From the IMG/VR virus record IMGVR_UViG_3300027704_000092, positions 1 to 32,101 of that record: a stretch of 32,101 nt of DNA, one strand, 5' to 3'. This DNA is from a virus. The notes under the pieces were generated by a model. That model did no database searches. It had not been told where the DNA came from and saw nothing but the letters and a program-made list of their open reading frames with translations. This document shows positions 4,501-31,903 of the stretch, piece by piece. The position numbers were made by a program, and so were the translations under genes. Within the stretch, counting starts at the first letter, position 1. Every line of letters starts with the position of its first letter.

Positions 4501-6954
4501 GTCCGTGCTACACGCATGACATTTGATTTAGAAAGTGTTAGTATTGCTGGAACATATTACGAAGATACAATGTTAGGTAAAACTAGCTTTAAGATTGGCA
4601 AGGTTAATCTAACAGGTGCTCTTGATGGAGTTAATGATCTATTTGAATTAATTAACCGTGAAGTTCTTTTAGGTAACAGTACCTACAAAATTACAAGCGT
4701 AGATGATAGAAATGCTCTTTACGATGTAATTTTTGTTGATCAAACTATTGCTCCTTCACTTAATCTTATTCCTAGTAGAACTGCAATAGTAGGTCAAGAC
4801 AACATGTTTGTTACTAGACTTACAGAAGTACAAAAAGAAAAATATAATAAAAGATTTTTAAGATTTACTGAGTCAGAGAAATATCAAATACAGAGTATTA
4901 CTCCGTATATTGAATATGAAATTACTCAAGTATCTCCTGGCAATGACGAAATGTATCCTGTAGGCATTCCAATGGATATAACTCTTAATGCTAACTATTA
5001 TGTAGGTGACATGATTGAAAATACTACAGCTACAGGTGGTAATGGATATATCTACAAATGTACAACAGCACACACAGTAACTAGTGCAGGATCAGATATC
5101 GGCGGAGTAACACAATTAGTATTTACTGCGTCTAACTGGACACAAATAGCAGAAACAATATCTGGTATGACACTAGCTGATAGAGTTATTGCTACTAAGC
5201 AAGTATTACAAAACAAGTACGGTGGTGTTGCTACAGTACAAGTATTAAACGAGCAAGCTACACGCTGGAGAATACATATTCCTAGCACAGCAACTAGCAG
5301 AATAGTTTCTAACATAAGAGCTCATTTTGCAAATTCTGGAGATAGCACAGCAATGTCCGTTACCCTTCTTAGAGACAACGAAGATAGGATTGGATTTGAT
5401 GTAAACTTAACTAGACAACTTACGCAGGGTAATAACTATGGTATTGGGCTGTTTAGAGGCGACGGATTCTCAGAAGATATTATTGTTGCTAATACTAAAG
5501 ACATTCCGAGTACTGTTAAGACGTTTACAATAAAAGTTATTGGCGAAATTGATAGTGCTATAAAATGGGTTACTCCAGTAAGCTTAGGTACTATTCCTGC
5601 GAACTATATTAGTACGTTACTAATTCAAGCTCAAACTACTGTTCCTGATACTAGAATGATGTATTCTATTAAATTAGGTAAACTTCCATATGGTATGACT
5701 TTAGACATTAACGGAGAAATTCTGGGAAATGCACAACAGTTTGGTACGCCTGCGGACAAAGGCCTTACTACGTTTGAAAAGAAGGCAGTTATGTGGGACG
5801 GTGTTCTTCCTGGTGATACTACTTTTGATAGAAAGTACAAATTTACAGTTGAAGCAAAAGATAGATTTGGATATACAGCTATTGAGCAGGAATTTGATCT
5901 TACTGTAACTGATGTCGATACTAAAAAGTATACAGACATATACATGAGACCAATGTTGCCTAGTGCTGAAAGAACATTATATGCTAACTTTATCTCAGAT
6001 AGAAATATATTTGAACCTGATAAGATTTATAGAGCAAACGATCCAACATTTGGATTACAAAGAAACTTAGACATGCTAGTATATGCAGGCATTGAAGCTA
6101 AGAAGATAGAAAACTTTGTTGCAGCGTCTGCTAAGAATCATAAGCGTAAGAAGTACATATTAGGTGACTTTAAAACAGCAAAGGCAACTACAGGAATAGG
6201 TGCAACTGCTAAAGACGTATACGAAGTAGTATATATAGAAGTTATTGATCCTGCCAATGCTAAACTTGGTAGAACAAAAACTAACTTTGAAATAACTACA
6301 AAAAGTGAAATTACTGTTGATAGTATAGCATACAGTCCTAAAGATGATGAGCAACGTATTAATTCAGGATATGACGCTTTACCTGTGTACACTAGAGGTG
6401 TAACTAAGTTTATATTTGAAGAACTAGAAGATACACTAGTTGTACAGACTAGAGATAGTAGCGATAGTAGCGAAAATCAATTTGTTGATGCAGATAATAA
6501 CGACTTTACTATAGAACTAAAAGACGGAACTGATGTTACAGTTACACTTCAGTTAACAGATGCAGAGTCACAACGTTTTAGACCAGTAACTAATACCATT
6601 AAAACTGATAGCAATGCAGTCAGAGTTAGTCAAGGACTAGACAATATTAGATATATATCTAGTATAGACAACATGAGAAGTAATATTAAAGCTATTGGCG
6701 GTAATGAAAGAACATATTTGCCGCTTTGGATGCGTACTCCGCAAGCAGGGTTTCAAGAATTGGATTATGTAACAGCTATACCAATTTGTTATTGTAAGCC
6801 CGGAACAAGTGCAGATATACTTAGAAACATTGTTAATAATAAGTTTGATACAAAAACAATTACCTTTGATATTGATAGGTATATTGTAAAATCAACCGAA
6901 GACACCACGGATGAGAAATATATCTTGTTCGCAAATTACCAGTATAACGTCTAA
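1543..6954 (+). CDS. Giant tail adhesin: esterase + YHYH + Ig-like repeats
   Basis: 1803 residues, the largest gene here. Residues 1-270 look like an alpha/beta hydrolase of the PHB depolymerase/feruloyl esterase (LpqC-like) group: HGSGSNG oxyanion loop at 49-55, nucleophile elbow GFSNG with Ser120, HGQTD with Asp194 followed by the typical FPY, and PEGHE with His264, giving a full Ser-Asp-His triad. Residues about 310-600 form a YHYH domain: YHYH itself at 440-443, then GYCFDGYPIYGPYGY near 485-499. From about 640 onward there are at least four putative Ig (He_PIG-type) units recognised by LPxG..L...G.I.G turns. I infer a tail-tip or fibre protein that binds and perhaps de-esterifies a host surface polymer. 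Start: ATG with AAGGA six bases upstream. A secreted enzyme is unlikely since no signal peptide is seen. Confidence 0.85.
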   Translation: MAKLQTNTTISITKTWFQQANGFTYPISVRVPNLASLSGKRIPVAILLHGSGSNGQATLSNWDSILPDHILIAPTGYLNQWNIAHEETKAPDVSFLQDLCTQLKTYENVDGNKIRILGFSNGAGLANRAYISLDEPGVDQIVAIASTFGSMMYRSGNFYIPVNEQSTGVNISNFPTIKIPFKPRKFINFHGQTDSSFPYVGGVHNFGYTFISAQASAFAVAKGQGYTGSQIADNLGVADIGGTFRYTYDTPFGDVLQYKYPEGHEVTVSIKTLVSNNFAFVHQDQPDSPSAISTVAWNASQLNVSDPEGTYPSSTTFAFDGQVITATSNGDPYPALAGHGMTNTGVRLFGHNPNVIQSQAYSYRIKNRAGENTSNPQATELGAQGIFANGVVAFNPSAGFGILPGSTVYPPIGFNYNAVHLQSAYGVDGAGGHPQSNGSYHYHDGSFLYSGWNTNKMYAANAYFNQTDFNGDKYRHIDGHSKIVGYCFDGYPIYGPYGYTTGTDNNSAVIQMSSSYIVLPNDDHRPGDFKFDRTIEVDGVGTVTLTAGSFLQDFEYRETKGTLDRYNGRYVKTPDFPNGTYAYFLTFEGTTADIGIASVKSSYPYIFGTETKQNRKLVPATVDQVTLDAALVQSALWNVATGTRLTNLIERSVVDISLPMANGVTPTLKLISGSLPTGTRIEGTSIVGTVYEVAYDTVFTAVLRASYNGLWEDRTIEFAVSGPDDPVWGTSAGALPIGPNSVFYVLDSALINFQLAATDTDIAAGDELTYFIADGDGMLPPGITMSEGGLLSGITDPLLSLDKRFESGGYDTENYATLPLDYGVTPSNGFSSFFYDRETYDYNEPTVNPRKLNRYYPFAVTVTDGESFVKREFQIYVVGDDFLKADNTLMSASTGIFKSSATNVRKPVWITPGALGYRRANNYQTIYLDIVNNSTLEGKLYYTLESTNDDGTKSIVPPGLKLDGSSGELVGNIPYQAAITQDYKFTVRATRMTFDLESVSIAGTYYEDTMLGKTSFKIGKVNLTGALDGVNDLFELINREVLLGNSTYKITSVDDRNALYDVIFVDQTIAPSLNLIPSRTAIVGQDNMFVTRLTEVQKEKYNKRFLRFTESEKYQIQSITPYIEYEITQVSPGNDEMYPVGIPMDITLNANYYVGDMIENTTATGGNGYIYKCTTAHTVTSAGSDIGGVTQLVFTASNWTQIAETISGMTLADRVIATKQVLQNKYGGVATVQVLNEQATRWRIHIPSTATSRIVSNIRAHFANSGDSTAMSVTLLRDNEDRIGFDVNLTRQLTQGNNYGIGLFRGDGFSEDIIVANTKDIPSTVKTFTIKVIGEIDSAIKWVTPVSLGTIPANYISTLLIQAQTTVPDTRMMYSIKLGKLPYGMTLDINGEILGNAQQFGTPADKGLTTFEKKAVMWDGVLPGDTTFDRKYKFTVEAKDRFGYTAIEQEFDLTVTDVDTKKYTDIYMRPMLPSAERTLYANFISDRNIFEPDKIYRANDPTFGLQRNLDMLVYAGIEAKKIENFVAASAKNHKRKKYILGDFKTAKATTGIGATAKDVYEVVYIEVIDPANAKLGRTKTNFEITTKSEITVDSIAYSPKDDEQRINSGYDALPVYTRGVTKFIFEELEDTLVVQTRDSSDSSENQFVDADNNDFTIELKDGTDVTVTLQLTDAESQRFRPVTNTIKTDSNAVRVSQGLDNIRYISSIDNMRSNIKAIGGNERTYLPLWMRTPQAGFQELDYVTAIPICYCKPGTSADILRNIVNNKFDTKTITFDIDRYIVKSTEDTTDEKYILFANYQYNV

Positions 6955-11719: not shown

Positions 11720-12073
11720 ATGACGTATTTAGTAACTGATAATTGCATTAAGTGCAAGCATATGGATTGTGTAGAAGTGTGTCCAGTAGACTGTTTTTAC
11801 GAAGGTGCAAACATGTTGGTAATTAACCCAGATGAATGTATTGACTGCGGAGTATGTGTACCTGAGTGTCCGGTAGATGCAATTATACCGGACAATGCTG
11901 TAGCTGATTATCCTAATATTGATCTACTAGCAATAAACACAAAGTATAGTGAACTATGGCCTAATATTACAGATGCTAGGCCCGACGATGTTCCAGCAGA
12001 TGCAGCAGAATGGGATGGAGTTGCAAACAAATTTGAAGAACACTTTTCAGAGGAGCCAGGGATTGGTGACTAG
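11720..12073 (+). CDS. fdxA: 7Fe ferredoxin, FdxA type
   Basis: 117 residues, full length for the FdxA family (about 107-112). The cysteine layout is that of Azotobacter ferredoxin I shifted by one: Cys9, Cys12, Cys17, Cys21, Cys25 and Cys40, Cys43, Cys46, Cys50, giving a [3Fe-4S] cluster (9, 17, 50) and a [4Fe-4S] cluster (21, 40, 43, 46). Family hallmarks [15 protein letters not shown] and PDECIDC are all there, as is the C-terminal extension with ELWPNIT. It carries electrons at low potential; a phage partner is unknown but the flavoenzymes ThyX (two genes on) and the nitroreductase-like protein are possible. GGAG precedes the ATG. All ligands are intact, so it is likely functional. Confidence 0.93.
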
Positions 12074-18750: not shown

Positions 18751-19581
18751 ATGACAGACTATTATAGTAGACTAGGTGTAAGCAGAAATGCTACACAAGA
18801 AGACCTCAAAAAGGCATATAAAAAAGCTAGTATGCAACACCATCCTGACAGGGGTGGTGATGCCGAGAAATTCAAAAGAATTAACGAAGCATATAGTACA
18901 CTAAAAGATCCTGCTAAAAAACAACAGTACGATAATCCTCAACAGCAACAACGTAATCCATTTGGGCAAGGGCAACAAGAGCATAACCCATTTGAAGGAA
19001 CGCCATTTGAACATCATTTCCATCACGGGTTTGGCCAACAACGACCAAGGCGTCCTTTAAATCAAGACATACGTATAATGGCTAACGTTGATCTTAGAGA
19101 TATAGTTACAGGTAAAAATCTATTTGTACAACTGCCGCTTGGCTCGGGCAGAACTGAATCAATGAATGTAGATATTCCTGCAGGTGCAAAACAAGGTGAC
19201 ACAATACAATACGAAGGGCTTGGAGACGATACACATAGACAGTTTCCGAGAGGAAACTTACACGTTGTTATACAAGTTGCACCGGTTATTGGGTGGGAAA
19301 GGAATGGTAACGATTTAATTACTAAAAAAACCGTAAATCTATTTGACTTATTGCTAGGAGATGTTATAATAGTAACAACACTAGACGATAGAAACATTAA
19401 ATTAACTATTCCAAAAGGCACAAATTCAGGTCAACGATTCAGTATACCAGGATACGGGATCCCCGATATTAATACAGCACAACGTGGTAACATCCATGTC
19501 ATTGTTGAAGCGGAAACTCCGGAAATAACAGACGAAAATCTGTTAAACAAGATTAAGCAAATTAGAGAAGAGATCGAATAA
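18751..19581 (+). CDS. DnaJ/CbpA-like J-domain co-chaperone
   Basis: 276 residues. J domain at 1-62 with the HPD motif at 31-33 (HHPDRGG) and the YYSRLGV start; then a Gly/Phe/Gln/His-rich linker (about 65-100; NPFGQGQQ, EHHFHHGFGQQ); then two C-terminal substrate-binding beta domains (about 105-275) with VDIPAGAKQGDTI and LTIPKGTNSGQRF. The four CxxCxGxG zinc modules of DnaJ are absent, so it is a class B protein like CbpA. It would bring host DnaK to phage substrates through the HPD motif. The gene ends one base before the ClpA-like gene, implying one transcript and a shared task in protein remodelling. Confidence 0.92.
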   Translation: MTDYYSRLGVSRNATQEDLKKAYKKASMQHHPDRGGDAEKFKRINEAYSTLKDPAKKQQYDNPQQQQRNPFGQGQQEHNPFEGTPFEHHFHHGFGQQRPRRPLNQDIRIMANVDLRDIVTGKNLFVQLPLGSGRTESMNVDIPAGAKQGDTIQYEGLGDDTHRQFPRGNLHVVIQVAPVIGWERNGNDLITKKTVNLFDLLLGDVIIVTTLDDRNIKLTIPKGTNSGQRFSIPGYGIPDINTAQRGNIHVIVEAETPEITDENLLNKIKQIREEIE

Positions 19582-19582
19582 T

Positions 19583-21829
19583 ATGGTAGAACCAAGTAAA
19601 GAGTTACAATTAGTTTTTGATAAAGCAATTAATGATGCTAAAAAGCTGCAGCACGAGTATGTTACACTTGAGCATTTGCTACACGCAATCTTTTGTGAAG
19701 AAAAGTTCTGTAATATTATGACTATGTTTGGTGCTGATGTAGCTTACATTAAGTCTAATCTAGAACATCATTTAAAAACTAACATGGCTGATATTATTAC
19801 TGACAAAGTTAAGATTAAGCCAAAAAAGACACATACTGTAGAACGTGTACTAAATCGTGCATTTACTCAAGTACTATTTGCAGGACGTAATACAATTGAC
19901 TTAACTGATGTTGTATTAAGTATGCTAAATGAAAGAAAATCTATTTCAGTATACTATTTAGAGAAGGGCGGAGTTGAGAAAGCGAAGTTTGCAGAATTTC
20001 TTAACAGTGAACTTGAAGAAGATTTACTAAGTGACGATGAAATAAGTAGTGATGCTAAACGTGCATTACGTGCATTTACTACTAATCTAAACGATGAAGT
20101 AAAGCGTGATAAGATTGATCCTATTATCGGACGTAGTTCCGAACTTGAAACACTAGCACTAGCATTAGGCCGTAGACAAAAGAATAATGTGCTAATGGTA
20201 GGCGATCCAGGTGTTGGTAAAACAGCTATTGCTGAAGGACTTGCATACAATATTGAAAATGGCAAGGTTCCTAGCTTCTTGTCAGAGTATAAAGTATACA
20301 ACTTAGACATTGGTGCAATGCTTGCCGGCAGTAAGTATCGCGGAGACTTTGAAGAACGCTTTAAACTTGTTATGCAAGCACTTACCAAACAAGGTAAAAC
20401 TATTATGTTCATCGACGAAGCACACATGATGAGCGGTGCTGGTGCGTCAGGTGGTGGTGGTAGCAATGACCTTGCTAATATGCTAAAGCCTGCACTTACT
20501 AAAGGTGACTTGAAGGTTGTTGCGTCAACTACATGGGAAGAATACCGTAAGTACTTTGAATCGGACCGTGCGTTGATGCGTAGGTTCCAACGTATTACTA
20601 TTGGTGAGCCTAGCAAAGCAACTACAAGAGATATTTTAATTGGAATTAAGAAATACTATGAAGAATTCCATAACACTACTATTACAGAAGAAGCTATTGA
20701 TTCAGCTATTAAGTTAAGTGTAAAATATCAGCCTGATAAGAAGCTTCCAGATAAAGCAATTGATCTTATTGATATTGCATGCTCAAGATTTAAAGTAAAT
20801 GATGACGAATCAGAAGAGAAAATTGTTGGTGAATCACAAATACAGTTTGAACTTGCTAAGTTAGTTGATATGCCTACAGAGCGTATTGCTGAAAAAGAAA
20901 CTGAAAGCTTAATGAACTTAGAAAAGAACCTTAAAGGCGAAGTGTACGGACAAGACGAAGCTATTGAATCAATTGTTGATAAGGTACTAGTTAACCAAGC
21001 TGGCCTAAAAGCTGATGACAAGCCAATTGGATCGTTTGTGTTTATGGGCCCAACAGGAACAGGTAAAACTGAGACAGCAAAGCAGTTAGCAAAATGTTTA
21101 GGCGTAAACTTAGTACGTTTTGATATGAGTGAATACCAAGAAAAGCATTCAGTTGCTAAACTGATTGGTTCACCTCCAGGTTATGTTGGACACGAAGATA
21201 ATGCAGGACAGTTAATTACTAAACTGCAAGAATCACCTAACTGTGTACTACTACTTGACGAAATTGAAAAGGCGCATCCAGATGTTTCACAAATATTGTT
21301 GCAACTTATGGACAATGGTAGAGTTACAGGTTCTAATGGTAAGGTAGCTGACGCACGTAATGCCACACTTATACTTACTACTAACTTAGGTGCTCGAGAC
21401 GCAGAGAAAAACACCATTGGCTTTAATGAAGACTTTGAAAATGTTCAAGATGATACTGAACTAAAACGTTTCTTTAGTCCAGAGTTTAGAAATAGACTAG
21501 ATGGTGTGATTACATTTGCCAAACTAGGTAAAGAAGTAATGATGAAGATTGTTGGCAAGTTCCTAGTTGAGCTTAAAGACATGGTTAAAGATAAAAACAT
21601 AGCAATTACTATTACTGATGATACACTTGACTACTTAGTAGACAAAGGATTTGACCCTGCTATGGGTGCAAGGCCTTTACAACGTGTTATTGACAAGGAT
21701 ATCAAACGTAAACTAGCAAGAGAAATGTTATTCGGTGATCTTAAAGACGGTGGTTCATTAACTATCGATTATAGAGATGGTGAGATTCAATTGGACTGTG
21801 TTAAAGATGAAATCACTACAACTGTTTGA
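19583..21829 (+). CDS. clpA: ClpA-type AAA+ unfoldase with ClpP-binding loop
   Basis: 748 residues (E. coli ClpA has 758). Clp N-domain at about 1-145; first AAA domain with Walker A GDPGVGKT at 207-214 and Walker B MFIDEAH; second AAA domain with Walker A GPTGTGKT at 489-496 and Walker B LLLDEIEKAH; sensor and Arg residues in the PEFRNRLD segment; C-terminal AMGARPLQRVI. The long coiled-coil middle domain of ClpB is missing. An IGF tripeptide at 612-614 (NTIGFNED) sits where E. coli ClpA has its IGL ClpP-docking loop. It probably unfolds proteins for host ClpP; a host-independent remodelling role with the adjacent J-protein is an alternative. Translationally linked to that gene by a one-base gap. 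Confidence 0.93.
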   Translation: MVEPSKELQLVFDKAINDAKKLQHEYVTLEHLLHAIFCEEKFCNIMTMFGADVAYIKSNLEHHLKTNMADIITDKVKIKPKKTHTVERVLNRAFTQVLFAGRNTIDLTDVVLSMLNERKSISVYYLEKGGVEKAKFAEFLNSELEEDLLSDDEISSDAKRALRAFTTNLNDEVKRDKIDPIIGRSSELETLALALGRRQKNNVLMVGDPGVGKTAIAEGLAYNIENGKVPSFLSEYKVYNLDIGAMLAGSKYRGDFEERFKLVMQALTKQGKTIMFIDEAHMMSGAGASGGGGSNDLANMLKPALTKGDLKVVASTTWEEYRKYFESDRALMRRFQRITIGEPSKATTRDILIGIKKYYEEFHNTTITEEAIDSAIKLSVKYQPDKKLPDKAIDLIDIACSRFKVNDDESEEKIVGESQIQFELAKLVDMPTERIAEKETESLMNLEKNLKGEVYGQDEAIESIVDKVLVNQAGLKADDKPIGSFVFMGPTGTGKTETAKQLAKCLGVNLVRFDMSEYQEKHSVAKLIGSPPGYVGHEDNAGQLITKLQESPNCVLLLDEIEKAHPDVSQILLQLMDNGRVTGSNGKVADARNATLILTTNLGARDAEKNTIGFNEDFENVQDDTELKRFFSPEFRNRLDGVITFAKLGKEVMMKIVGKFLVELKDMVKDKNIAITITDDTLDYLVDKGFDPAMGARPLQRVIDKDIKRKLAREMLFGDLKDGGSLTIDYRDGEIQLDCVKDEITTTV

Positions 21830-22863: not shown

Positions 22864-23457
22864 ATGGAACACTTTGTAAGAATAGTAATGGAAAAGAATG
22901 ATAATCTAAATGAAAGTTTAGACGAATCAATATTCCCATCAAGTGAGCTATACGAATCTGAGCAAGGTGCAACAATAATACAGATTCCGTTAGCAAGACA
23001 ATTATCTGAAGAAGAATCAACAGAGTATGCTAACCGTTTAGCAAATTATATGTTTGAACAAGGTCACGAAGACTTTGATATTGAAGTTAGTACTGATATA
23101 ACAGACGATCTTGATGAAGAAACGTATGATGACGATGACGAGTTTTACGAAGAATATGGTGAGATGTGGTTTAACGAAGATGATATTATGGACGAAGCAG
23201 ATTATCAAGGACGTAAAGTTAAACTAGGCAAGCCAATGCAAGGTGACGTAAAAAAGTTTAAGGTGTATGTCAAAGATCCCAAGACTGGGAACACCAAGAA
23301 AGTTAACTTTGGCCACGGTGGAAGCAGTGTTAAAGGCAAGGCAATGAGTATTAAAAAGAATAACCCAGGTGCCAGACGTTCATTTAGAGCAAGACATAAT
23401 TGTGATAACCCTGGACCAAGAACAAAAGCAAGATATTGGAGTTGTAGAAAATGGTAA
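22864..23457 (+). CDS. DUF5872-type phage protein
   Basis: 197 residues, AGGAA nine bases before the ATG. The N-terminal 120 residues are very acidic (DDLDEETYDDDDEFYEEYGE). The C-terminal 75 residues are strongly basic and carry the DUF5872 pattern: KLGKPMQGDVKKFKVYV, KVNFGHGG, then RRSFRARHNCDNPGP and TKARYWSCRKW with two Cys. The charge split suggests an acidic region that is removed or masks a basic, nucleic-acid-binding end. The family is known from large phages and some virus-like sequences but its function is unknown. It overlaps the next start by seven bases. Confidence 0.7.
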   Translation: MEHFVRIVMEKNDNLNESLDESIFPSSELYESEQGATIIQIPLARQLSEEESTEYANRLANYMFEQGHEDFDIEVSTDITDDLDEETYDDDDEFYEEYGEMWFNEDDIMDEADYQGRKVKLGKPMQGDVKKFKVYVKDPKTGNTKKVNFGHGGSSVKGKAMSIKKNNPGARRSFRARHNCDNPGPRTKARYWSCRKW

Positions 23458-23724: not shown

Positions 23725-24054
23725 ATGAAAATTAATGAATTTGCAGCACCTCAAGATGATAACTTACCGTATGATGTAGTTGATGACCTTACTATCTTTA
23801 TGCGTAACGATCCTATGTTTTACCGTAAAAAATTGTTTCCATGTATTATGCAAATGAAAGACAAATACGATGGTAAAAAAAGTATAGTACCACAAGAAGC
23901 ATTTGGTCCAATAGTTGATGAAGCTATGGAATCATACTGTCAGCAGTACGGATTAGGCAGACGAGACAAGATCTTTAAGTTACAAGATCGAGACGATGTT
24001 ATTAATAAGCTATATGGTGAAGAAATGAAACAAATTGAGTGCGGAGCCTACTAA
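23725..24054 (+). CDS. Small phage protein with MKINEF start
   Basis: 109 residues, ATG one base after the previous stop. It is helical and charged with no Gly-rich loop or membrane segment; conserved-looking parts are DDLTIFMRNDPMFYRKKLFP and the end YGEEMKQIECGAY. Its first residues MKINEF look like those of the likely capsid-targeted proteins nearby (MKIREI, MKISEI), but it lacks the following (L/I)-x-E, so I count it only as a weak member. I recall homologues in T4-like marine phages in this setting without function. Confidence 0.7.
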   Translation: MKINEFAAPQDDNLPYDVVDDLTIFMRNDPMFYRKKLFPCIMQMKDKYDGKKSIVPQEAFGPIVDEAMESYCQQYGLGRRDKIFKLQDRDDVINKLYGEEMKQIECGAY

Positions 24055-25107
24055 ATGCTATTGCGAGAGTTGTACGAAGCAGGCACTGAAAAAGTAGTTG
24101 CCGTTATGCCAGGCGGGTTTCATCCCTTTCATCCCGGTCATAAAAGTTTGTACGATTGGGCTGTAAAAACTTTTGGTAATGTATATGTTGCTGCAACTAA
24201 CGACACCGCAGCTAGACCTTTTCCATTTGATGTAAAGAAAAAACTTGCTGTATTAGCAGGTATTCCATCAGATAAGTTTATTCAAGTAAAATCACCTTTT
24301 AACGCTATGAGCTATCAAGACATTGTAGATGACAATACTGCACTTGTATTTGTACGCAGTGAAAAAGACAAAGCTGAACATCCTAAGCCAGACCAAACTA
24401 AGAAGAATGGTGAGCCAGGCTACTTAAAGTCTTACACAGGTAAAGACATGGAAAGTTCTAATACTTCAGGCTATATGGCGTACGGTCCTACTGTTAACTT
24501 TGACTTTAGTGGCATGCAAATTAAGAGTGCAAGTGAATTACGTGCAACTTGGCCCAACATGAGTGACGAAGACAAACATAAAGCAGCCGCTCTTATGTAC
24601 GGCAAAGGACACGACGAAGCAGTACAGTTACTTGACAAAGCACTTGGTGGTTCTGATACAACAGAAGCTGTTAGATCTTATAGATCAAGTGCATCAGACC
24701 AAGCGGCAGCAGCTGGCGCTTATAATGGTGGCAAGAGTGTTGGTAAGCAAAAAAAAGCAGCCAAGGTAAAAGACCCTAAGTCGCAAGAGCGTAAAGACGC
24801 TGGCGTTGCAAGGATGCGTGATCAAGACGAAGCCGCTAAAAAAGCACAAAGAGATAGATTTGCCGCAATTAAGAAAGCTACAACTGAAGCTCTTGTACTA
24901 GATAAAGAATCACTTATTGACTATTTGCAGAAAGCAATCACTGACTGGGCAGCAAAAGAAAAAGATGTTGATAAGTTAAGTTATGTACTAAAGCACCTAA
25001 GTGGTAAAACAATTTCAACCCGAAATCATAAGTCTGGCAGAGAATATTTTACTGTAAATAAAGAGGACATTCTAGAAGCATTACGTAGAATACACGCTGA
25101 TGGATGA
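24055..25107 (+). CDS. Nucleotidyltransferase-like protein, likely capsid-targeted
   Basis: 350 residues, ATG directly after the previous stop. Residues about 13-190 are an HxGH nucleotidyltransferase domain (NMN adenylyltransferase/cytidylyltransferase superfamily): PGGFHPFHPGHKSLYDWA with His26 and His29, and a later SASELRA segment resembling the ISSTxIR motif. Residues about 190-290 are a charged, Ala/Lys-rich low-complexity stretch, and about 297-350 a helical end. The first residues MLLRELYE followed by AG match a short targeting peptide with LYE as an (L/I)-x-E protease site. The substrate is not certain; NAD or CDP-linked activation are both possible. Its last bases overlap the next start by eight. 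Confidence 0.8.
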   Translation: MLLRELYEAGTEKVVAVMPGGFHPFHPGHKSLYDWAVKTFGNVYVAATNDTAARPFPFDVKKKLAVLAGIPSDKFIQVKSPFNAMSYQDIVDDNTALVFVRSEKDKAEHPKPDQTKKNGEPGYLKSYTGKDMESSNTSGYMAYGPTVNFDFSGMQIKSASELRATWPNMSDEDKHKAAALMYGKGHDEAVQLLDKALGGSDTTEAVRSYRSSASDQAAAAGAYNGGKSVGKQKKAAKVKDPKSQERKDAGVARMRDQDEAAKKAQRDRFAAIKKATTEALVLDKESLIDYLQKAITDWAAKEKDVDKLSYVLKHLSGKTISTRNHKSGREYFTVNKEDILEALRRIHADG

Positions 25108-25324
25108 ACTAGAACGCATAAAGAAACTTGCAGGTGTAAACGAATTCAAAGGTTACACAGAGTACACTCTAGAAAACATCAGTGACGCTGCTGCAAGCAA
25201 TGTCAAACAAATGAAATCAAAAAACATCAAGCCCGGCGATAAAGAATGGTTCGAACTATGGTTTGGCCTTCCAAAAATGACAGGTGAGAATATGCCACGG
25301 GGCTTCCGAGGGCGTAAAAAATGA
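25100..25324 (+). CDS. Small phage protein with KLAGV motif
   Basis: 74 residues, overlapping the nucleotidyltransferase gene by eight bases and the next gene by ATGA. It begins MDELERIKKLAGVNEF; the short motif KLAGV followed by NE returns in the protein at 27826 (FAKLAGVKLNEG) and is common at the start or inside small proteins of T4-like marine phages. The C-terminal half contains DKEWFELWFGLPKMTG and a basic end. No known function. Confidence 0.65.
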   Translation: MDELERIKKLAGVNEFKGYTEYTLENISDAAASNVKQMKSKNIKPGDKEWFELWFGLPKMTGENMPRGFRGRKK

Positions 25325-25566
25325 GTTTAAGAACGTGGTGGCAAAGAGTTACTAGAGAAGAGTATGAACTAATTTTAACAGTAACTAAAGATGTTACAGT
25401 ACATACTGATGGAACAAGAACTGAGTCTACTAAACAAGTTAAATACAAAGCAAAGAAGCTTGTAAAGCTAACTCCTAAACACATTATATTTAAAGATTTA
25501 GATAACAATAGGAACGAACTTAAATTTTTAAAACCTATTGAGTATCATATAAAGAAGATTTGGTAA
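25321..25566 (+). CDS. Small basic phage protein, unknown function
   Basis: 81 residues, start in an ATGA overlap. Predicted beta-rich with a VTVHTDGTRTESTKQVKYKA hairpin and a Lys-rich end (EYHIKKIW). Reads like one compact domain. No membrane segment or Cys. Function not recognised; conserved neighbourhood and tight overlap are the only support. Confidence 0.6.
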   Translation: MSLRTWWQRVTREEYELILTVTKDVTVHTDGTRTESTKQVKYKAKKLVKLTPKHIIFKDLDNNRNELKFLKPIEYHIKKIW

Positions 25567-25567
25567 C

Positions 25568-25723
25568 ATGAAAATACGTGAAATAACAGAAGGCGTTGGA
25601 CGCATCACCAAACAGAATCAAACAGTTGATGTTGGTCCTAATCAAGTATCTATTGAAGCAAAAAAGATGGGGTTTACTGTTGACAAAGACGGACGACCTC
25701 CTACACTAAGTACCAAAGGCTAG
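25568..25723 (+). CDS. 51-residue protein with capsid-targeting-like N-terminus
   Basis: 51 residues, ATG one base after the previous stop. Starts MKIREITE then GV; ITE fits the T4 prohead protease (gp21) site (L/I)-x-E with a small residue after it. The remainder (TVDVGPNQVSIEAKKMGFTV, DKDGRPPTLSTKG) is a short sequence I know as conserved in T4-like cyanophages. If the leader is cleaved a 43-residue peptide remains, which could be an internal head protein. Confidence 0.7.
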   Translation: MKIREITEGVGRITKQNQTVDVGPNQVSIEAKKMGFTVDKDGRPPTLSTKG

Positions 25724-25734
25724 TTAACCAAGTA

Positions 25735-25929
25735 ATGAAGATATCTGAGATAACAGAAAACTTTGCTGACGGTAAAGTAAAAGGTAAAAGTAAACCAGGT
25801 CGTGTTAAAAAGTCCGGTGCTAGTTGTAACGGTAGTGTAACTGCACTACGTAAGAAAGCTAAGAACGCAAGCGGCGAAAAGGCTAAAATGTATCACTGGT
25901 GTGCTAATATGAAGGCCGGCAAGAAGTAG
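25735..25929 (+). CDS. Small basic protein with capsid-targeting-like N-terminus
   Basis: 64 residues. Starts MKISEITE, then NF, almost identical to the leader of the gene 160 bases upstream. The rest is very basic (KVKGKSKPGRVKKSG) with a conserved block SCNGSVTALRKKAKN and GEKAKMYHWCAN, including two Cys. The end KAKMYHWC resembles KARYWSC at the end of the DUF5872-type protein. A basic DNA-associated protein inside the head is a reasonable guess. A late promoter motif is not seen directly upstream, so it probably shares a transcript. Confidence 0.7.
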   Translation: MKISEITENFADGKVKGKSKPGRVKKSGASCNGSVTALRKKAKNASGEKAKMYHWCANMKAGKK

Positions 25930-25933
25930 TAAT

Positions 25934-26644
25934 ATGGATAGAGATAATAAGTCGCCAGTCATGACTACTATTAAAGCTAGACACCAAACACCTCATGTAG
26001 ATACAACTCCCCTTCCAGAAAACGACGTAGAATTTATAACTAGAGCAATTAGGAATACTCCTAGCAAACAAAATCTCCTTCCTTATAGAGTAGTAGTATT
26101 ACCTGCACAACAAGAATTTAAAAAATATCTTGTAGAACATATTACTTGGTGTTCTAATCAAGATTACGAACGATTAGGCAAAGTAAGATCTTGGAAAGAG
26201 ATAGTGGCAAACAATCAATACAATCACCCGTTAGTGATTATGTTCTTAACTAACAAAAAATTAGATAGTCAGGGCCAAGCTAACATTGAAATAGGACTAG
26301 CGGCGTCTAATGCAATGTATGCAGCAGCTGAATTAGGTTACAGTACTTCTTTTGCAAGATGCTTAGGTGGTGATAGTAAATTTGTAACATCAGTATTAAA
26401 CTATCCAAAATTAAGTGTACAGTTGAGTGTGTGCATAGGAAAAGAAATTGACAATCCTCCAAGCTTAGATAACTACAATAGTATTTTGTTTAATGAAACT
26501 GGTGATCCTTGGGCTACTGATCGGAAGAATGTAAACTCATTAGATAGATTAACACATGAGCGGCGCAATAGAGGCGATCATGTGGAAATATTAGATAAAG
26601 AAATACCTATTTCAAAAAAGTGGAAGCTTACACGCCATCCTTAA
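25934..26644 (+). CDS. Nitroreductase-like flavoprotein
   Basis: 236 residues. The nitroreductase fold is suggested by AIRNTPSKQNLLPYRVVVLP (residues about 37-56; the family has R-x-x-PS-x-N-x-Q-P-W/Y and FMN phosphate contacts here) and by IEIGLAASNAMYAAAELGYS (about 118-137), the long central helix, followed by a SFARCLGG turn. The end of the protein is polar and less conserved (DRLTHERRNRGDHVEIL). Phage members of this superfamily reduce unknown substrates using FMN and NAD(P)H. The FMN-binding pattern is partly degenerate, so the catalytic status is open. It is three bases past its neighbour. Confidence 0.65.
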   Translation: MDRDNKSPVMTTIKARHQTPHVDTTPLPENDVEFITRAIRNTPSKQNLLPYRVVVLPAQQEFKKYLVEHITWCSNQDYERLGKVRSWKEIVANNQYNHPLVIMFLTNKKLDSQGQANIEIGLAASNAMYAAAELGYSTSFARCLGGDSKFVTSVLNYPKLSVQLSVCIGKEIDNPPSLDNYNSILFNETGDPWATDRKNVNSLDRLTHERRNRGDHVEILDKEIPISKKWKLTRHP

Positions 26645-26655
26645 TAACTACTAGT

Positions 26656-26946
26656 ATGAAACTAATAAGCACAGGACTGCTAGTAGTAGTCTTTTTTTGG
26701 ATCTGGCCTGTAAGATTATTTACTAAAAAGAATAACTGTTATTTTTGGACATTAGAAACACTTATTGTTCAAGGCGGTAGTATGGAATGGTACCCATCAC
26801 GTAGGTGGGTAGGATATCATGTAGTATGGATAGATCAAAATAACGTAGCTTGGGAATATACTAGAAAAATGCAACGTCATGATCCATGGTATACTATGAT
26901 ATTCTACAATGGACATATACGTAAGTTCCGTGGCAAAAGAAAATAA
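26656..26946 (+). CDS. Small membrane-anchored protein, unknown function
   Basis: 96 residues from the ATG at 26656; a GTG further upstream at 26620 would run inside the nitroreductase-like gene and has a poor start. One N-terminal hydrophobic segment (about 4-18; ISTGLLVVVFFWIWPV) precedes a soluble Trp/Tyr-rich part (MEWYPSRRWVGYHVVWID, NVAWEY). It ends with a basic tail (RKFRGKRK). No ribosome site is clear. No function recognised. The soluble part may face the periplasm or the cytoplasm. Confidence 0.6.
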   Translation: MKLISTGLLVVVFFWIWPVRLFTKKNNCYFWTLETLIVQGGSMEWYPSRRWVGYHVVWIDQNNVAWEYTRKMQRHDPWYTMIFYNGHIRKFRGKRK

Positions 26947-26950
26947 TAAG

Positions 26951-26958
26951 GATAAATA
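26951..26958 (+). promoter_or_regulatory. Late promoter motif overlapping a ribosome site
   Basis: GATAAATA five bases before the ATG at 26964 (11 before the in-frame ATG at 26970). The preceding AAGGA (26948-26952) overlaps it, so it may serve as a ribosome site, a promoter, or both. If a promoter, the message would be leaderless. Confidence 0.45.
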
Positions 26959-26963
26959 TTATT

Positions 26964-27185
26964 ATGAAAATGAATGAAATATTAGACGAAGAAGTAGCTG
27001 CCGGTGGAACAAGTGCTGGTAATATTGCGGCTGTTGCAAGTGTTCCAGGTGCTAAACGTAAAGTAGGCAAAGGTGGCAAATACGGCGCCCCTAAAGCTCC
27101 ACAAGCTACAAACGCAGATGGTACAGCTAAAAACGCATTAGATATGAAGGCCAACGTTATGGGTGGCAAGGCTATCAAACGATAA
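26964..27185 (+). CDS. Small basic protein with capsid-targeting-like N-terminus
   Basis: 73 residues. Starts MKMNEILDE then EV; LDE fits the (L/I)-x-E protease rule. After it comes a Gly/Ala/Lys-rich basic part with GTSAGNIAAVASVPGAKRK and GKGGKYGAPKAP, and no stable fold is expected. T4 internal proteins IPI-IPIII are also small, basic and carry such a removable leader (MKTYQEFIAE in T4). Late promoter-like motifs precede it and follow it. Packaging with DNA is inference. Confidence 0.7.
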   Translation: MKMNEILDEEVAAGGTSAGNIAAVASVPGAKRKVGKGGKYGAPKAPQATNADGTAKNALDMKANVMGGKAIKR

Positions 27186-27188
27186 ATA
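27181..27188 (+). promoter_or_regulatory. T4-type late promoter motif (GATAAATA)
   Basis: GATAAATA overlaps the upstream stop codon and is 27 bases before the ATG at 27216, with AGGA and GGGGA between. Confidence 0.6.
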
Positions 27189-27215
27189 CAAGTAATAGGA
27201 ATTACGGGGATTCAA

Positions 27216-27824
27216 ATGAGAAAACAAGAGATAGAAGAAGGGTTAGGCGAATTGGCAGATGTTGCCGAACGTGATCACGAAGTACAAATGGCCCGTGCTG
27301 AACTATACAAACTAGCAAAGTATGCTATCAAACTACACGACAAGCTAAAGAGTGTTAGCGAACGTGAAGGTTTGGAAGGTTGGGTACAATCTAAAATTAC
27401 TAAATCAGCAGATATGATTGGTAGTGTATATCATCACTTAGATTATCAAGAAGTAGATGACCAGCCTATGATGGACTTAGAGCTTCCTGCTAAAGAAATG
27501 GCAGAAAGCGGCTTACAAGCTCATATTGGTGATAAAAAATATGGCAAAGCTGGCATGGACAAGCTAAGAAAAGCTGGACGTGATGGCGGTGGTGAAGAAG
27601 CCAAAGGTAAGATTAAAGATAAGATACTAGGTAAGAAAACTAACGAAGCATCATCATGCGATTGTAACTGTGGTAAAGCAATTTGCGAAAGCTGTGGTAA
27701 GCCTCATCATAAAAAGAAAGATAAATCTTACAAAGAATCACTTCAAGCTAAATTAGAAGGCAAATTTAAATCAGCTGCACAACGTAAAGCAGTACACGCC
27801 GCTAAAGCTTCAGGCAAAAAATAA
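27216..27824 (+). CDS. Conserved phage protein with Cys cluster
   Basis: 202 residues. Starts MRKQEIEE then GLGEL; IEE fits (L/I)-x-E. The block GELADVAERDHEVQMARAEL and LEGWVQSKITKSADMIGSVYHHLDYQ (about 10-90) is strongly conserved in T4-like marine phages as far as I remember. A Cys cluster follows near 145-160 (CDCNCGKAICESCGKPHH), a possible zinc site, and the end is Lys/Ala-rich and basic. Function unknown; likely virion-associated by its leader and its late promoter motif. Confidence 0.75.
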   Translation: MRKQEIEEGLGELADVAERDHEVQMARAELYKLAKYAIKLHDKLKSVSEREGLEGWVQSKITKSADMIGSVYHHLDYQEVDDQPMMDLELPAKEMAESGLQAHIGDKKYGKAGMDKLRKAGRDGGGEEAKGKIKDKILGKKTNEASSCDCNCGKAICESCGKPHHKKKDKSYKESLQAKLEGKFKSAAQRKAVHAAKASGKK

Positions 27825-27825
27825 A

Positions 27826-28521
27826 ATGGATTACGCAGCACTACAGCAAAAACTATTTGATATAGAACCAACTGATCGAGCAGAAGACTTACGTCAACTA
27901 GCTGGGTCTGCTGGTAGTAATACGCAGGAAAGTGTGCAACCCCAGCAAAACATCGTGCAGGAAAGTGCAAACGTACAAGAAGGCACTATGCCTGTTGAAG
28001 GTGATTACAGTTTAAATGACTTTGCTAAACTAGCAGGCGTTAAACTTAATGAAGGTCCTGTAGATGCTTGGAAGGCTGGCTTCAATAACTATAACAAAAC
28101 AGACGGCATTAAAAAGGCTATGAAGGCAATGGGCGATGGTCCAGCGGATAAGTCTAAAGACAAAGACAAAAAACAATCTGCTTCTAGTAATGTAAGTTCA
28201 AGCTTGTGGAAATCTTTCTTAAAAGAGCACACAGCAGGTCTACAAAAAATTGCATCTAATCCTCGCAAGAAGGCAGAGTTTGACAAGTTTATGGCAAAGA
28301 TGGGCGAAAGTGTACAAGAAGCTCCTAAACCAAAGAATAAAAACACACGTCATCGTAAAGATTTAGACGACCTTGAAAGAACAATTCGCCAATCAAAAGA
28401 TGGCATGGACAAAGACACACAAGCACATATTAATAAAAAGCGTAAAGAACTTACTCTAAACAACTCAGTTAAAGTTGAATCCATCAAGTCCCGACTCTGG
28501 GACGCATTAAACTCAAAATAA
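27826..28521 (+). CDS. Conserved phage protein with KLAGV/LNEG motif
   Basis: 231 residues, ATG one base after the previous stop. The start MDYAALQQKLFDIEPTDRAEDL is a pattern I know from T4-like marine phages. The middle contains NDFAKLAGVKLNEGPVDAW and is followed by a Lys/Ser-rich stretch (DKSKDKDKKQSASS) and a helical, charged C-terminal half. LNE before G could be a prohead protease site inside the protein. No enzyme motif. It ends just before the strong promoter at 28525, and its role is unknown. Confidence 0.7.
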   Translation: MDYAALQQKLFDIEPTDRAEDLRQLAGSAGSNTQESVQPQQNIVQESANVQEGTMPVEGDYSLNDFAKLAGVKLNEGPVDAWKAGFNNYNKTDGIKKAMKAMGDGPADKSKDKDKKQSASSNVSSSLWKSFLKEHTAGLQKIASNPRKKAEFDKFMAKMGESVQEAPKPKNKNTRHRKDLDDLERTIRQSKDGMDKDTQAHINKKRKELTLNNSVKVESIKSRLWDALNSK

Positions 28522-29154: not shown

Positions 29155-29237
29155 TGATATATACTATTATAGATTCGCTCACTAACGAGCAAGCATGGTT
29201 AGCGTTGGCCTTAAGCAACGAGGAGGCAATAAATTGA
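29154..29237 (+). CDS. Possible 27-residue leader peptide before gp43
   Basis: ATG overlaps the stop of the upstream gene (TAATG) and the TGA overlaps the polymerase TTG start (TTGA), which is a typical coupling arrangement. It reads MIYTIIDSLTNEQAWLALAL and then SNEEAIN. Too short to judge; its use may be to couple polymerase translation to the upstream genes. Confidence 0.4.
   Translation: MIYTIIDSLTNEQAWLALALSNEEAIN
29221..29226 (+). promoter_or_regulatory. Ribosome site fixing the gp43 TTG start
   Basis: AGGAGG seven bases before TTG at 29234. The alternative ATG at 29195 has no such site and would add 13 residues that do not fit the family start. Chosen start therefore 29234. Confidence 0.75.
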
Positions 29238-31903
29238 GTTACGTAGACGCAATGTTTGATCGCGATGCTGATATTATCAGAGCAGTTGAACGCAGAGATG
29301 GTAAAAGACATTTTACCGAATATCAAGCAAAATATACATTTTACTATAAAGACCAAAGAGGCAAATACAAGAGTATCTTTGGCGATCCGTTAAGTCGTAT
29401 CGTGTGCAAAAGCACAAAAGACTTCCGCAAAGAAGTTGCTATTAACAGAGACAAAGCTCTCTTTGAAAGCGACATTAATCCTATTTTCCAATGTTTAAGC
29501 GAAAACTATCTTAACCAAGATGCACCTAAACTAAACATTGCATTCTTTGATATTGAGACTGACTTTGATCCTGAGCGTGGCTTTGCTGATCCTAGTGATC
29601 CGTTTATGCCTATTACAAGTGTAAGTGTATATTTGCAGTGGCTCGACACAATGGTATGTTTAGCAGTTCCACCTAAGACACTTACTATGGAGCAAGCAAA
29701 AGCAGAGCTTGAAGGTATTGACAATGTAATGTTGTTTGAGAAAGAAGGCGAAATGCTTGATACCTTCTTAACACTTATTGAAGACAGTGACGTACTAAGT
29801 GGCTGGAACAGTGAAGGATATGATATCCCGTATATTGTTAACAGAACTAGTCGTGTACTAAGCAAGAATGACACACGTAGATTCTGCTTGTGGGGACAAC
29901 TTCCTAAGAAGCGTATGTACGAAAAGTACGGCAAAGAAAGTGAAACGTTTGACCTAGTTGGTCGTGTACACTTGGATAGTTTGAACTTGTATCGTAAGTA
30001 CACTTATGAGGAGCGTCACACATATCGACTGGATGCTATCGGCGAAGTTGAAGTGGGCGAGAACAAGGTTCCGTATGAAGGAACACTTGACGCACTTTAC
30101 AACAATGACTTTCGTAAGTTTATTGAATATAACATTCAGGATACTGCACTACTTGACAAACTAGACAAGAAGCTTCGCTTTATTGATCTAAGCAACGAAC
30201 TAGCACACAGCAACACAGTACTTCTACAAACAACAATGGGTGCTGTTGCAGTTACAGAGCAAGCTATTGTTAACGAAGCACACCACAGAGGCTTCCAAGT
30301 ACCCAATCGTACAAAGCGTGATGACGAAGCTACACAAGCGGCTGGTGCATATGTTGCATTTCCTAAAAAGGGCTTGCATAAGTGGATTGGGTCAATGGAT
30401 TTGAACTCACTGTATCCTTCAGTGATTCGTGCATTGAATATGGACCCTGCAACTATTATAGGACAAATACGTCCAGAGATTAGTGATGCTCGTGTACATG
30501 AAGACATGTTCTTAAAGAAGAAAAGCTTTGCCGGTAGTTGGGAAGGACGTTTTAGCACAGAAGAATACGAAGCTGTTATGGAGCAAAAGCGTGACATAGC
30601 ACTTACTGTTGAGTTTGAAAACGGCGAATCAAAAGTAATGAGCGGCGCTGAAATTTATCAAGTAATTTTTAATTCTAACAAACCCTGGATGCTTAGTTCA
30701 AATGGTACTATCTTTACTACAGAACACGAAGGTGTTATTCCTGGATTACTTAAACGCTGGTATGCTGAACGTAAAGACTTGCAGAAGAATCTTAAAAAAG
30801 CAAAAGATGCAGGCAATGCAATCGAAACAGAATACTGGGACAAGCGACAGCTAGTTAAGAAGATTAACTTGAACAGTTTGTATGGTGCTATCCTTAATCC
30901 TGGTTGTAGATTCTTTGATAAGCGTATTGGGCAATCAACAACGCTTACTGGTCGTACTATTGTTAAGCATATGAGTGCAGAAGTTAACAAAACTATTACA
31001 GGAGTATACGATCACGTAGGTGATGCAATGATATACGGTGACACTGACTCTTGTTACTTTAGTGCATTTCCTACTTTAAAGAAAGATATTGATGCAGGTA
31101 GTATTCCTTGGAGCAAGGACAATGTTATTACACTTTACGATCAAGTATGTGAAGCAGCAAACTTAACATTTGAAGGCTTTATGTTAGAAGCATTTCATTG
31201 TCCAAAGAGTAGGTCGGACGTTATTGCAGCGGCTAGAGAAATTGTAGCACAGTCAGGTTTGTTTATTACTAAGAAGCGGTATGCGGCACTAGTGTATGAT
31301 ATTGAAGGCTTTAGGAGTGACACAGATGGCAAGCCAGGCAAAGTAAAAGCTATGGGATTGGACTTACGTAGATCAGATACTCCTGTGTTTATGCAAGAGT
31401 TTCTAAGTGAGCTATTACTTATGGTACTTACTGATAAGCCGCAGAAAGACATACTTGATCGTATTACAGAATTCCGTTTACAGTTTCATGAACGGCCTGG
31501 ATACGAAAAAGGTAGTCCGAAACGTGCAAACAAAGTTGGCCACTATCGCCGCTTAGAAGAGAAGCAAGGTAAAGCTAACATGCCTGGGCATGTACGAGCA
31601 AGTATTAATTGGAATACGCTTAAACGTATGAACGGAGACAAGTACTCTGAAGAGATCGTTGACGGTATGAAAGTTATTGTTTGTAAACTAAAACAGAATC
31701 CGCTAGGGTACACAAGTGTTGCTTATCCAACAGATGAGATGCATATTCCTAGCTGGTTTAAAGAACTGCCATTTGATGATTTAGCAATGGCAGAGACTAT
31801 TATTGATAATAAGTTAGACAACTTGATCGGAGTGCTTAACTATCCATTAGAGGATACAAAGCGTCATAACACGTTTAGTAGTTTGTTTGACTTCGGAGAA
31901 TAA
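29234..31903 (+). CDS. 43: Family B DNA polymerase gp43
   Basis: 889 residues from a TTG start with AGGAGG seven bases upstream (T4 gp43 has 898). Proofreading exonuclease: ExoI FFDIETDF with Asp106/Glu108 (T4 Asp112/Glu114) and further Exo motifs including GWNSEGYDIPYI. Polymerase motif A SMDLNSLYPS with Asp389, motif B KKINLNSLYG, motif C YGDTDSCYF with Asp603 and Asp605. The last residues LFDFGE suit a clamp-binding tail. It is the replicative polymerase that works with gp44/62 and gp45. All catalytic residues are intact. It lies in the operon behind the 28525 early promoter. The rare TTG start may moderate the amount made. Confidence 0.95.
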   Translation: MSYVDAMFDRDADIIRAVERRDGKRHFTEYQAKYTFYYKDQRGKYKSIFGDPLSRIVCKSTKDFRKEVAINRDKALFESDINPIFQCLSENYLNQDAPKLNIAFFDIETDFDPERGFADPSDPFMPITSVSVYLQWLDTMVCLAVPPKTLTMEQAKAELEGIDNVMLFEKEGEMLDTFLTLIEDSDVLSGWNSEGYDIPYIVNRTSRVLSKNDTRRFCLWGQLPKKRMYEKYGKESETFDLVGRVHLDSLNLYRKYTYEERHTYRLDAIGEVEVGENKVPYEGTLDALYNNDFRKFIEYNIQDTALLDKLDKKLRFIDLSNELAHSNTVLLQTTMGAVAVTEQAIVNEAHHRGFQVPNRTKRDDEATQAAGAYVAFPKKGLHKWIGSMDLNSLYPSVIRALNMDPATIIGQIRPEISDARVHEDMFLKKKSFAGSWEGRFSTEEYEAVMEQKRDIALTVEFENGESKVMSGAEIYQVIFNSNKPWMLSSNGTIFTTEHEGVIPGLLKRWYAERKDLQKNLKKAKDAGNAIETEYWDKRQLVKKINLNSLYGAILNPGCRFFDKRIGQSTTLTGRTIVKHMSAEVNKTITGVYDHVGDAMIYGDTDSCYFSAFPTLKKDIDAGSIPWSKDNVITLYDQVCEAANLTFEGFMLEAFHCPKSRSDVIAAAREIVAQSGLFITKKRYAALVYDIEGFRSDTDGKPGKVKAMGLDLRRSDTPVFMQEFLSELLLMVLTDKPQKDILDRITEFRLQFHERPGYEKGSPKRANKVGHYRRLEEKQGKANMPGHVRASINWNTLKRMNGDKYSEEIVDGMKVIVCKLKQNPLGYTSVAYPTDEMHIPSWFKELPFDDLAMAETIIDNKLDNLIGVLNYPLEDTKRHNTFSSLFDFGE

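Follow-up and report, generated by a model that had tools for sequence, protein, structure and literature searches.

Leader peptides ending in (L/I)-x-E and modular proteins point to protease-processed head cargo in a marine T4-related phage fragment and its relatives

The window analysed here is a 32,101-base stretch of DNA from an uncultivated viral record (IMGVR_UViG_3300027704_000092) and is a fragment of a marine T4-related phage. Five open reading frames (ORFs) clustered at 24055-27824 were found to encode proteins that start with a short leader ending in (L/I)-x-E. These leaders are very probably capsid-targeting signals, and the proteins that carry them, together with their larger counterparts in related phages, would be cargo polyproteins that are packed into the head and processed by the prohead protease. 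An earlier note on the same DNA, made from the letters alone, had pointed out the five proteins and likened their starts to those of T4 internal head proteins; all five were recovered at the coordinates and with the start sequences it gave. They are as follows.

24055..25107, plus strand: nucleotidyltransferase, 350 residues; leader MLLRELYE, then AGTE; codon of Glu8 at 24076-24078.
25568..25723, plus strand: protein of 51 residues; leader MKIREITE, then GVGR; Glu codon at 25589-25591; a 43-residue N-terminal module follows.
25735..25929, plus strand: protein of 64 residues; leader MKISEITE, then NFAD; Glu codon at 25756-25758; Lys-rich NFADG...MYHWCANMK module.
26964..27185, plus strand: protein of 73 residues; leader MKMNEILDE, then EVAA; Glu codon at 26988-26990.
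27216..27824, plus strand: protein of 202 residues; leader MRKQEIEE, then GLGE; Glu codon at 27237-27239; a DHEVQMAR module comes next.

The window consensus is M-[KLR]-hydrophobic-x-[E/D/Q]-[L/I]-x-E over 8-9 residues. Genes were called with a simple caller, and residues 2-40 of all 47 called window genes were shuffled. Starts of the form M.{4,6}[LI]xE were found six times against 1.6 expected (P 0.004); a cluster of five or more of them inside 3.8 kb came up in roughly one shuffle per 20,000 (P about 5e-5). The leader cluster in the window is a real pattern.

Conservation was studied in the loci found with the nucleotidyltransferase as query, together with the window, which gave 33 distinct leaders. 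Residue 6 was Leu or Ile and residue 8 was Glu in 33 of the 33 distinct leader DNAs. Residues 5, 7 and 10 varied, residue 7 being F, Y or T, and residue 9 was mostly Ala. Since Arg4 is invariant despite the use of five codons, and residue 6 is encoded by eight codons, selection acts on the leader peptide. The same conservation is seen for the leaders of 25568, 26964 and 27216 across many homologues.

The system extends beyond the five proteins of the earlier note, since in relatives numerous modules are joined in series at (L/I/V/M)-x-E junctions. In the window itself the modules lie mostly on separate ORFs, whereas in relatives several distinct domains are joined in one mosaic polypeptide. 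The 51-residue product of 25568 corresponds to the N-terminal module of relatives' cargo proteins of up to 895 residues, and the 64-residue product of 25735 to a module at or near the C-terminus of such proteins. Between modules of these two types, Pfam detected 5'-deoxynucleotidase (NT5C) and Cu/Zn superoxide dismutase, with GH19 and a sigma-70 region 4-like domain just under the cut-off. Other proteins with a C-terminal module of the 25735 type carry tRNA nucleotidyltransferase, NUDIX, cytidylyltransferase-like and weak ParB-like domains. The first 200 residues of the nucleotidyltransferase family are constant and its tail is variable; the families of 27216 and 27826 are also built from short modules in series, Lys-rich or Cys-rich. 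Modular proteins of the same kind are encoded by the cultured phages S-SM2, S-SCSM2R and Melnitz-3. The PHROG library holds no family for most of the window's cargo proteins, and the NFADG module had no match in the annotated phage collection. A Pfam scan of the modules gave no peptidase domain above the cut-off; a sub-threshold Peptidase_M78 match was seen in one locus (L114) and an HExxH stretch in another (L140).

Modules found in differing contexts were nearly always preceded by a Glu, and the residue two places before that Glu was hydrophobic. Module patterns from a first set were applied to loci fetched later, after removal of shared contexts. In these held-out junctions P1 was Glu in 128 of 133 cases (background 7%) and P3 was L, I, V, T or M in 110 of 133 (background 24%), with P2 unconstrained. 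A second test used no chosen anchors and considered only where local alignments between deduplicated cargo proteins begin and stop. Near such a site lay 415 of 954 alignment ends, against 165 ± 12 at random positions, and 111 of 344 alignment starts, against 54 ± 6. When a module stands directly behind a leader, the leader Glu takes the junction position.

Further sites of this kind, passed over in the first reading, were located in the window (a slash marks the predicted cut). Behind the CTP_transf_like domain of ORF 24055, which has an HPGH motif and extends to about residue 200, two further modules are predicted, at TTE/AVRSY (24664-24666) and TTE/ALVLD (24886-24888). ORF 27216 has predicted internal sites at MAE/SGLQ (27504-27506), TNE/ASSCDCNCGK (27645-27647, in front of a Cys cluster) and KLE/GKFKS (27756-27758). 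Four other ORFs belong to the same region.

22864..23457, plus strand: non-leader protein with a shared, basic C-terminal module (phrog_7595) after MDE/ADYQGRKVK, codon at 23194-23196.
23725..24054, plus strand: weak member with a leader-like start (MKINEF or MRIDEF) that lacks (L/I)xE; conserved in relatives.
25100..25324, plus strand: alternative LAG[VI]-x-E/F start, MDELERIKKLAGVNE/FKGYTEY; codon of the predicted site at 25142-25144.
27826..28521, plus strand: leaderless ORF with a repeated LAG motif; predicted internal sites VQE/GTMP (27979-27981) and GVKLNE/GPVD (28051-28053).

A C-terminal module similar to that of ORF 22864 ends a leader protein of Methylophilales phage Melnitz-3. Two of these features had been suggested as weaker members of the leader set; both exist, and both are of a different kind from the leaders. 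MKINEF at 23725 is a leader-like start, with (L/I)xE absent here and in most homologues, and the LNE-G near 28050 lies inside ORF 27826, which has several such sites, and is not a leader. The [VI]-x-E/F or LAG[VI]-x-E/F start of ORF 25100 is retained in nearly all homologues. The LAG[VI] motif itself, which in ORF 25100 is directly upstream of the conserved [VI]-x-E/F, recurs in cargo or virion proteins (window 25100-25324 and 27826-28521; gp249 and gp281 of Pseudomonas jumbo phage PA5oct). It may be another motif for targeting or for binding to the core, but its statistics as a virion signal were weak, with p from 0.007 to 0.34 depending on the pattern used.

The earlier note had proposed a comparison with homologues in other T4-like phages and their gp21 protease, and the comparison bears the note out: all 33 leaders keep the motif, and the protease is present in two of the relatives, G014 (145,946 bases) and G016 (138,699 bases). 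Both encode the NFADG module; their gp21-type proteases match phrog_207 (E 1e-60 and 4e-55) and their gp23-type capsid proteins match phrog_138. In each, the leader-gene block, portal, protease and capsid protein are found on the same record. Among the leaders of G014 are MRLRHLFE/AETK (nucleotidyltransferase), MKFHQIKE/GVGR and MLVSEITE/NFAD; among those of G016 are MRFKDIISE/ASKP, MKVREIVSE/AAGS, MKIVEITE/KALL and MKILEIIE/SASA. A gp21-family prohead protease is also present in PA5oct.

The capsid proteins of G014 and G016 read LAE/NATAGATSAGN and LSE/SATAGATSAGN at the presumed cut, where, by analogy with T4, the prohead protease should cleave them. The motif E/xA(T/S)AGATSAGNIA behind the presumed cleavage Glu of the capsid protein occurs in similar form behind the leader of ORF 26964, whose segment resembles the mature N-terminus of a gp23-type major capsid protein (EVAAGGTSAGNIAAV). 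Over all loci read, the pattern [ATS]AG.{1,3}AG.[IV]A has 20 occurrences, three in capsid proteins right behind the presumed cleavage Glu and 17 in cargo proteins or junctions, and a Glu stands just upstream in 20 of 20, ORF 26964 included. When the capsid N-arm was searched within its own genome, the next best match was a cargo protein in PA5oct (gp281, E 0.02) and in G016 (ORF 8538, E 0.002), E-values that are weak because the N-arm stretch is short. The capsid N-arm of cyanophage S-CREM2 has a quite different sequence, and the next best match to it in that genome is gp160, with 75% identity over 24 residues (E 4e-10). Both gp281 (PA5oct record) and gp160 (PMC10665884) are virion proteins detected by mass spectrometry (MS). 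Near copies of the own capsid N-terminus beside a presumed cut are placed at 128342-129235 of OR473000.1 (gp160), in PA5oct gp281, at 8538-8714 of L179 (G016) and at 26964-27185 of the window; the copies differ between lineages together with the capsid protein. Such a copy is perhaps a docking signal for the protease or the shell.

Virion presence was taken from published MS of relatives. For PA5oct, virion proteins were those marked in its record as detected by electrospray ionisation tandem MS. Among the genes with starts of the form M-[KRHL]-hydrophobic-x-[ED]-hydrophobic, 8 of 11 were detected, compared to 84 of 487 other genes (p 1e-4). The plain (L/I/V/F)xE pattern showed no significant enrichment among PA5oct virion proteins (5/15, p=0.12). 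One of the eight, gp135, combines a leader with a domain that shares homology with one of the payload modules of the marine cargo proteins (E 1.6e-16). PA5oct's own cytidyltransferase, gp177, lacks a leader and is not among the detected proteins, which fits the model in one case. Two detected proteins with leaders, gp104 and gp105 (260677-262099, minus strand), contain HExxH-like stretches (VHELRHALD and VHELQHALD) and are candidate packaged metallopeptidases.

The virion proteome of S-CREM2 has been published (PMC10665884, Table 3). Exactly five genes of this phage fit the T4-spaced pattern M[KRNQ]x[FYLI]xx[FL][LIFMA]xE, and all five products are in the virion (p 4e-4). They are an S-adenosylmethionine (SAM) hydrolase, an APH-like kinase, a cytidylyltransferase and two proteins of no assigned function. 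The terms leader, N-terminal, capsid targeting and injected are all absent from that paper, and the leader signal was recognised in the present analysis. A cytidylyltransferase, T4-GC190, was likewise found in virions of S-SM1 (PMC3037559). The Cas9-like nuclease gp12 of S-CREM2 (OR473000.1; L189; 7704-10313, minus strand), also detected in the virion, has RFASFMAE/AA, a stretch that resembles a capsid-targeting leader, at residues 18-25, and its annotated start may be too far upstream.

The leaders, their conservation, the Glu-joined modules, the relatives' protease and capsid protein and the shared capsid motif are all read from sequence, and virion presence in relatives comes from published MS; targeting, cleavage in the window's phage, injection and payload functions are inferred. 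Late in infection, each protein would be attached to the prohead core by its leader. A gp21-type protease would cut after (L/I/V/M)-x-E, which would remove the leader and separate modules strung behind it. The products, namely the nucleotidyltransferase, small basic peptides resembling DNA-binding ones and a Cys-rich peptide, would be kept in the head with the genome and would probably pass along with it into the next host. Modules would be exchanged between phages at the protease sites, and one leader could therefore serve many payloads. By analogy to T4 Alt and IPI, delivery of enzymes to the host is probable, and the small basic peptides may mainly condense DNA. We also lean towards a wider claim, that one general system of head cargo is common to marine T4-related phages, from uncultivated jumbo phages to cyanophages and phages of Methylophilales, in which a leader is followed by exchangeable payload modules between prohead-protease sites, capsid maturation would turn one polyprotein into packaged effectors, and some cargo has a copy of the capsid N-terminus of its own lineage (PA5oct gp281, G016 ORF 8538, S-CREM2 gp160).

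Several points weigh against head targeting and processing. The virion evidence comes from relatives only, and cleaved N-termini are seen in none of the data here. The start pattern used for PA5oct was written after the leaders of the window had been viewed, and detection in PA5oct is not proof of packaging because the MS list includes abundant non-structural enzymes; the leaderless, undetected gp177 is counted here too, a single case (n=1) although consistent with the model. P3 is looser than in T4, V being as common as I or L. The window and two large relatives examined in full, G001 (275,366 bases) and G002 (236,751 bases), have no gp21-type protease or capsid protein detectable with PF03420, PF07068, phrog_207 and phrog_138, but absence is not shown by this, because those models matched nothing in the control genome either. 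The missing genes are attributed to the fragment state of the three records.

The leader proteins could instead belong to the prohead core or scaffold and be cut into pieces during maturation, as happens with T4 gp22, gp67 and gp68; the pieces would then do no more than condense DNA or fill the head, without delivery of anything functional. In favour of this, many of the modules are short and rich in Lys, a portal-adjacent core-type gene with a leader-like start is found in PA5oct (gp333) and G014, and a leader protein of G001 is located in the head gene block and is a member of a head-and-packaging family. We consider this explanation possible but rather unlikely, as many payloads are recognisable enzymes (nucleotidyltransferase, 5'-nucleotidase, superoxide dismutase, NUDIX, tRNA nucleotidyltransferase), for which there is no need in a filler, and among the leader proteins in S-CREM2 virions are a SAM hydrolase, a kinase and a cytidylyltransferase. 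It is far less probable that the leader is a general N-terminal signal of other use (membrane targeting, host-factor docking or translation regulation) with a coincidental likeness to T4, even though the leaders are only 8-9 residues long and the window is without a protease of its own. The boundary Glu stays where unrelated upstream sequence replaces the leader, the same boundary motif is present in the capsid protein, and leader proteins are enriched among the virion proteins of two isolates, PA5oct and S-CREM2. Chance is hardly credible, although (L/I)xE occurs often in phage proteins rich in Lys and Glu, and a selection effect could lie behind the cluster. Genome-wide in G001, the loosest pattern, M.{3,8}[LI]xE, gave 27 starts against 23 expected; this is barely an enrichment, and the case is therefore not built on that pattern. 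Against chance stand the low probability of the cluster, the invariance in 33 leaders and the held-out junctions, and it is contradicted already by the homologue data.

The window is a partial genome of an uncultivated marine T4-related phage whose nearest cultured relatives are jumbo phages. A DNA-level search of isolates and annotated phages gave no match to the window in the part that was searched. The DNA polymerase gene gives the genomic context.

29195..31903, plus strand: DNA polymerase of T4 type, nearest among isolates to those of Sinorhizobium phage Phosso (50%) and Agrobacterium phage Atu_ph07 (45%); neighbourhood as in PA5oct.

The next closest polymerases are those of RaK2/PBECO4-type jumbo phages. 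A stretch of PA5oct matches the window in gene content and order, with clamp loader, PhoH, DnaJ, ClpA, nucleotidyltransferase, a small transcription-regulator-like gene and DNA polymerase in common; the adjoining DnaJ-like and ClpA-like chaperone genes (window 18751-21829) are also found in G001. Within the leader cluster, 25934-26644 encodes a nitroreductase-family protein (PF00881, E 1e-12) that has no leader. Elsewhere in the window are a tail-type protein of 1803 residues (1543-6954), whose N-terminus is esterase/hydrolase-like with an LLHGSGSNG motif, and a ferredoxin-like protein with two Cys clusters (11720-12073). A long gene run in G001:C1 at about 19-56 kb (L049-L051) has, by eye only, a radical-SAM/SPASM-type look with repeated Cys-rich motifs.

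In T4, targeting needs no more than the first ten residues of IPIII, and the sites at which gp21 cuts have the form L/I-x-E (PMC9026906). Like the leaders of T4 IPI-IPIII and Alt, those of the window are short and N-terminal, end in (L/I)-x-E, are followed by a small or polar residue and precede varied cargo, and the window's relatives have a gp21-family protease and a gp23-family capsid protein. The reading as T4-like head-targeting leaders, proposed earlier, is in this respect supported. However, because an MKTYQEFIAE-like consensus, which marks the T4 internal proteins as such and not the whole class of capsid-targeting sequences, is not followed, the window's leaders are classed as a T4-like variant and kept apart from the leader family of the T4 IPs. 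The S-CREM2 leaders, unlike those of the window, have the T4 spacing M-K-x-[FY]-x-x-F-[L/I]-x-E. At 8-9 residues (15 for ORF 25100) the window's propeptides are slightly shorter than the 10-19 of T4. Unlike in T4, several modules stand behind one leader in relatives, with further (L/I/V/M)-x-E sites and a looser P3, one cargo segment of the window resembles the capsid protein N-terminus, and the range of cargo differs from that of T4 and is wider.

The polyvalent proteins of phages and conjugative elements, P1 DdrB and N4 vRNAP among them (PMC5512222), are similarly multidomain, mosaic and enzyme-bearing, with packaging and injection predicted; they have ParB-like and lysozyme-type domains in common with the cargo described here. 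Their release has been ascribed to embedded peptidase domains, whereas the junctions described here resemble the sites of a separate prohead protease. The modules here are also often much smaller and basic, and most of the proteins start with a targeting leader. Many head proteins of the giant phages phiKZ and SPN3US, including inner-body and ejection proteins, are processed after Glu by a prohead protease as well, but their propeptides are mostly long (several above 100 residues) with the motif A/S-x-E, and shuffled payload modules at cut sites are not described in the accessible parts of PMC5694885 and PMC9026906. Cyanophage virions likewise contain nucleotidyltransferase-type proteins (S-SM1, PMC3037559; S-CREM2, PMC10665884), of which that of S-CREM2 bears a leader. 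Already known are therefore the leader principle (T4), cleavage after Glu (phiKZ, SPN3US) and mosaic packaged multidomain proteins (polyvalent proteins). No report was found in the open-access literature that marine T4-related phages have capsid-targeting leaders, that cargo trains are cut at the sites of a prohead protease or that cargo contains copies of the capsid N-arm; this is not proof of absence, because only open-access sources were covered.

The leaders provide a sequence rule that predicts head-packed proteins of marine T4-related phages. They offer a possible account of puzzling virion enzymes, namely the cytidylyltransferase, SAM hydrolase and kinase, and possibly the Cas9-like nuclease of S-CREM2, and would turn hundreds of 'hypothetical' proteins into candidate injected effectors. 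If true, the T4 model would be extended from single cargo proteins to protease-processed polyproteins with exchangeable modules.

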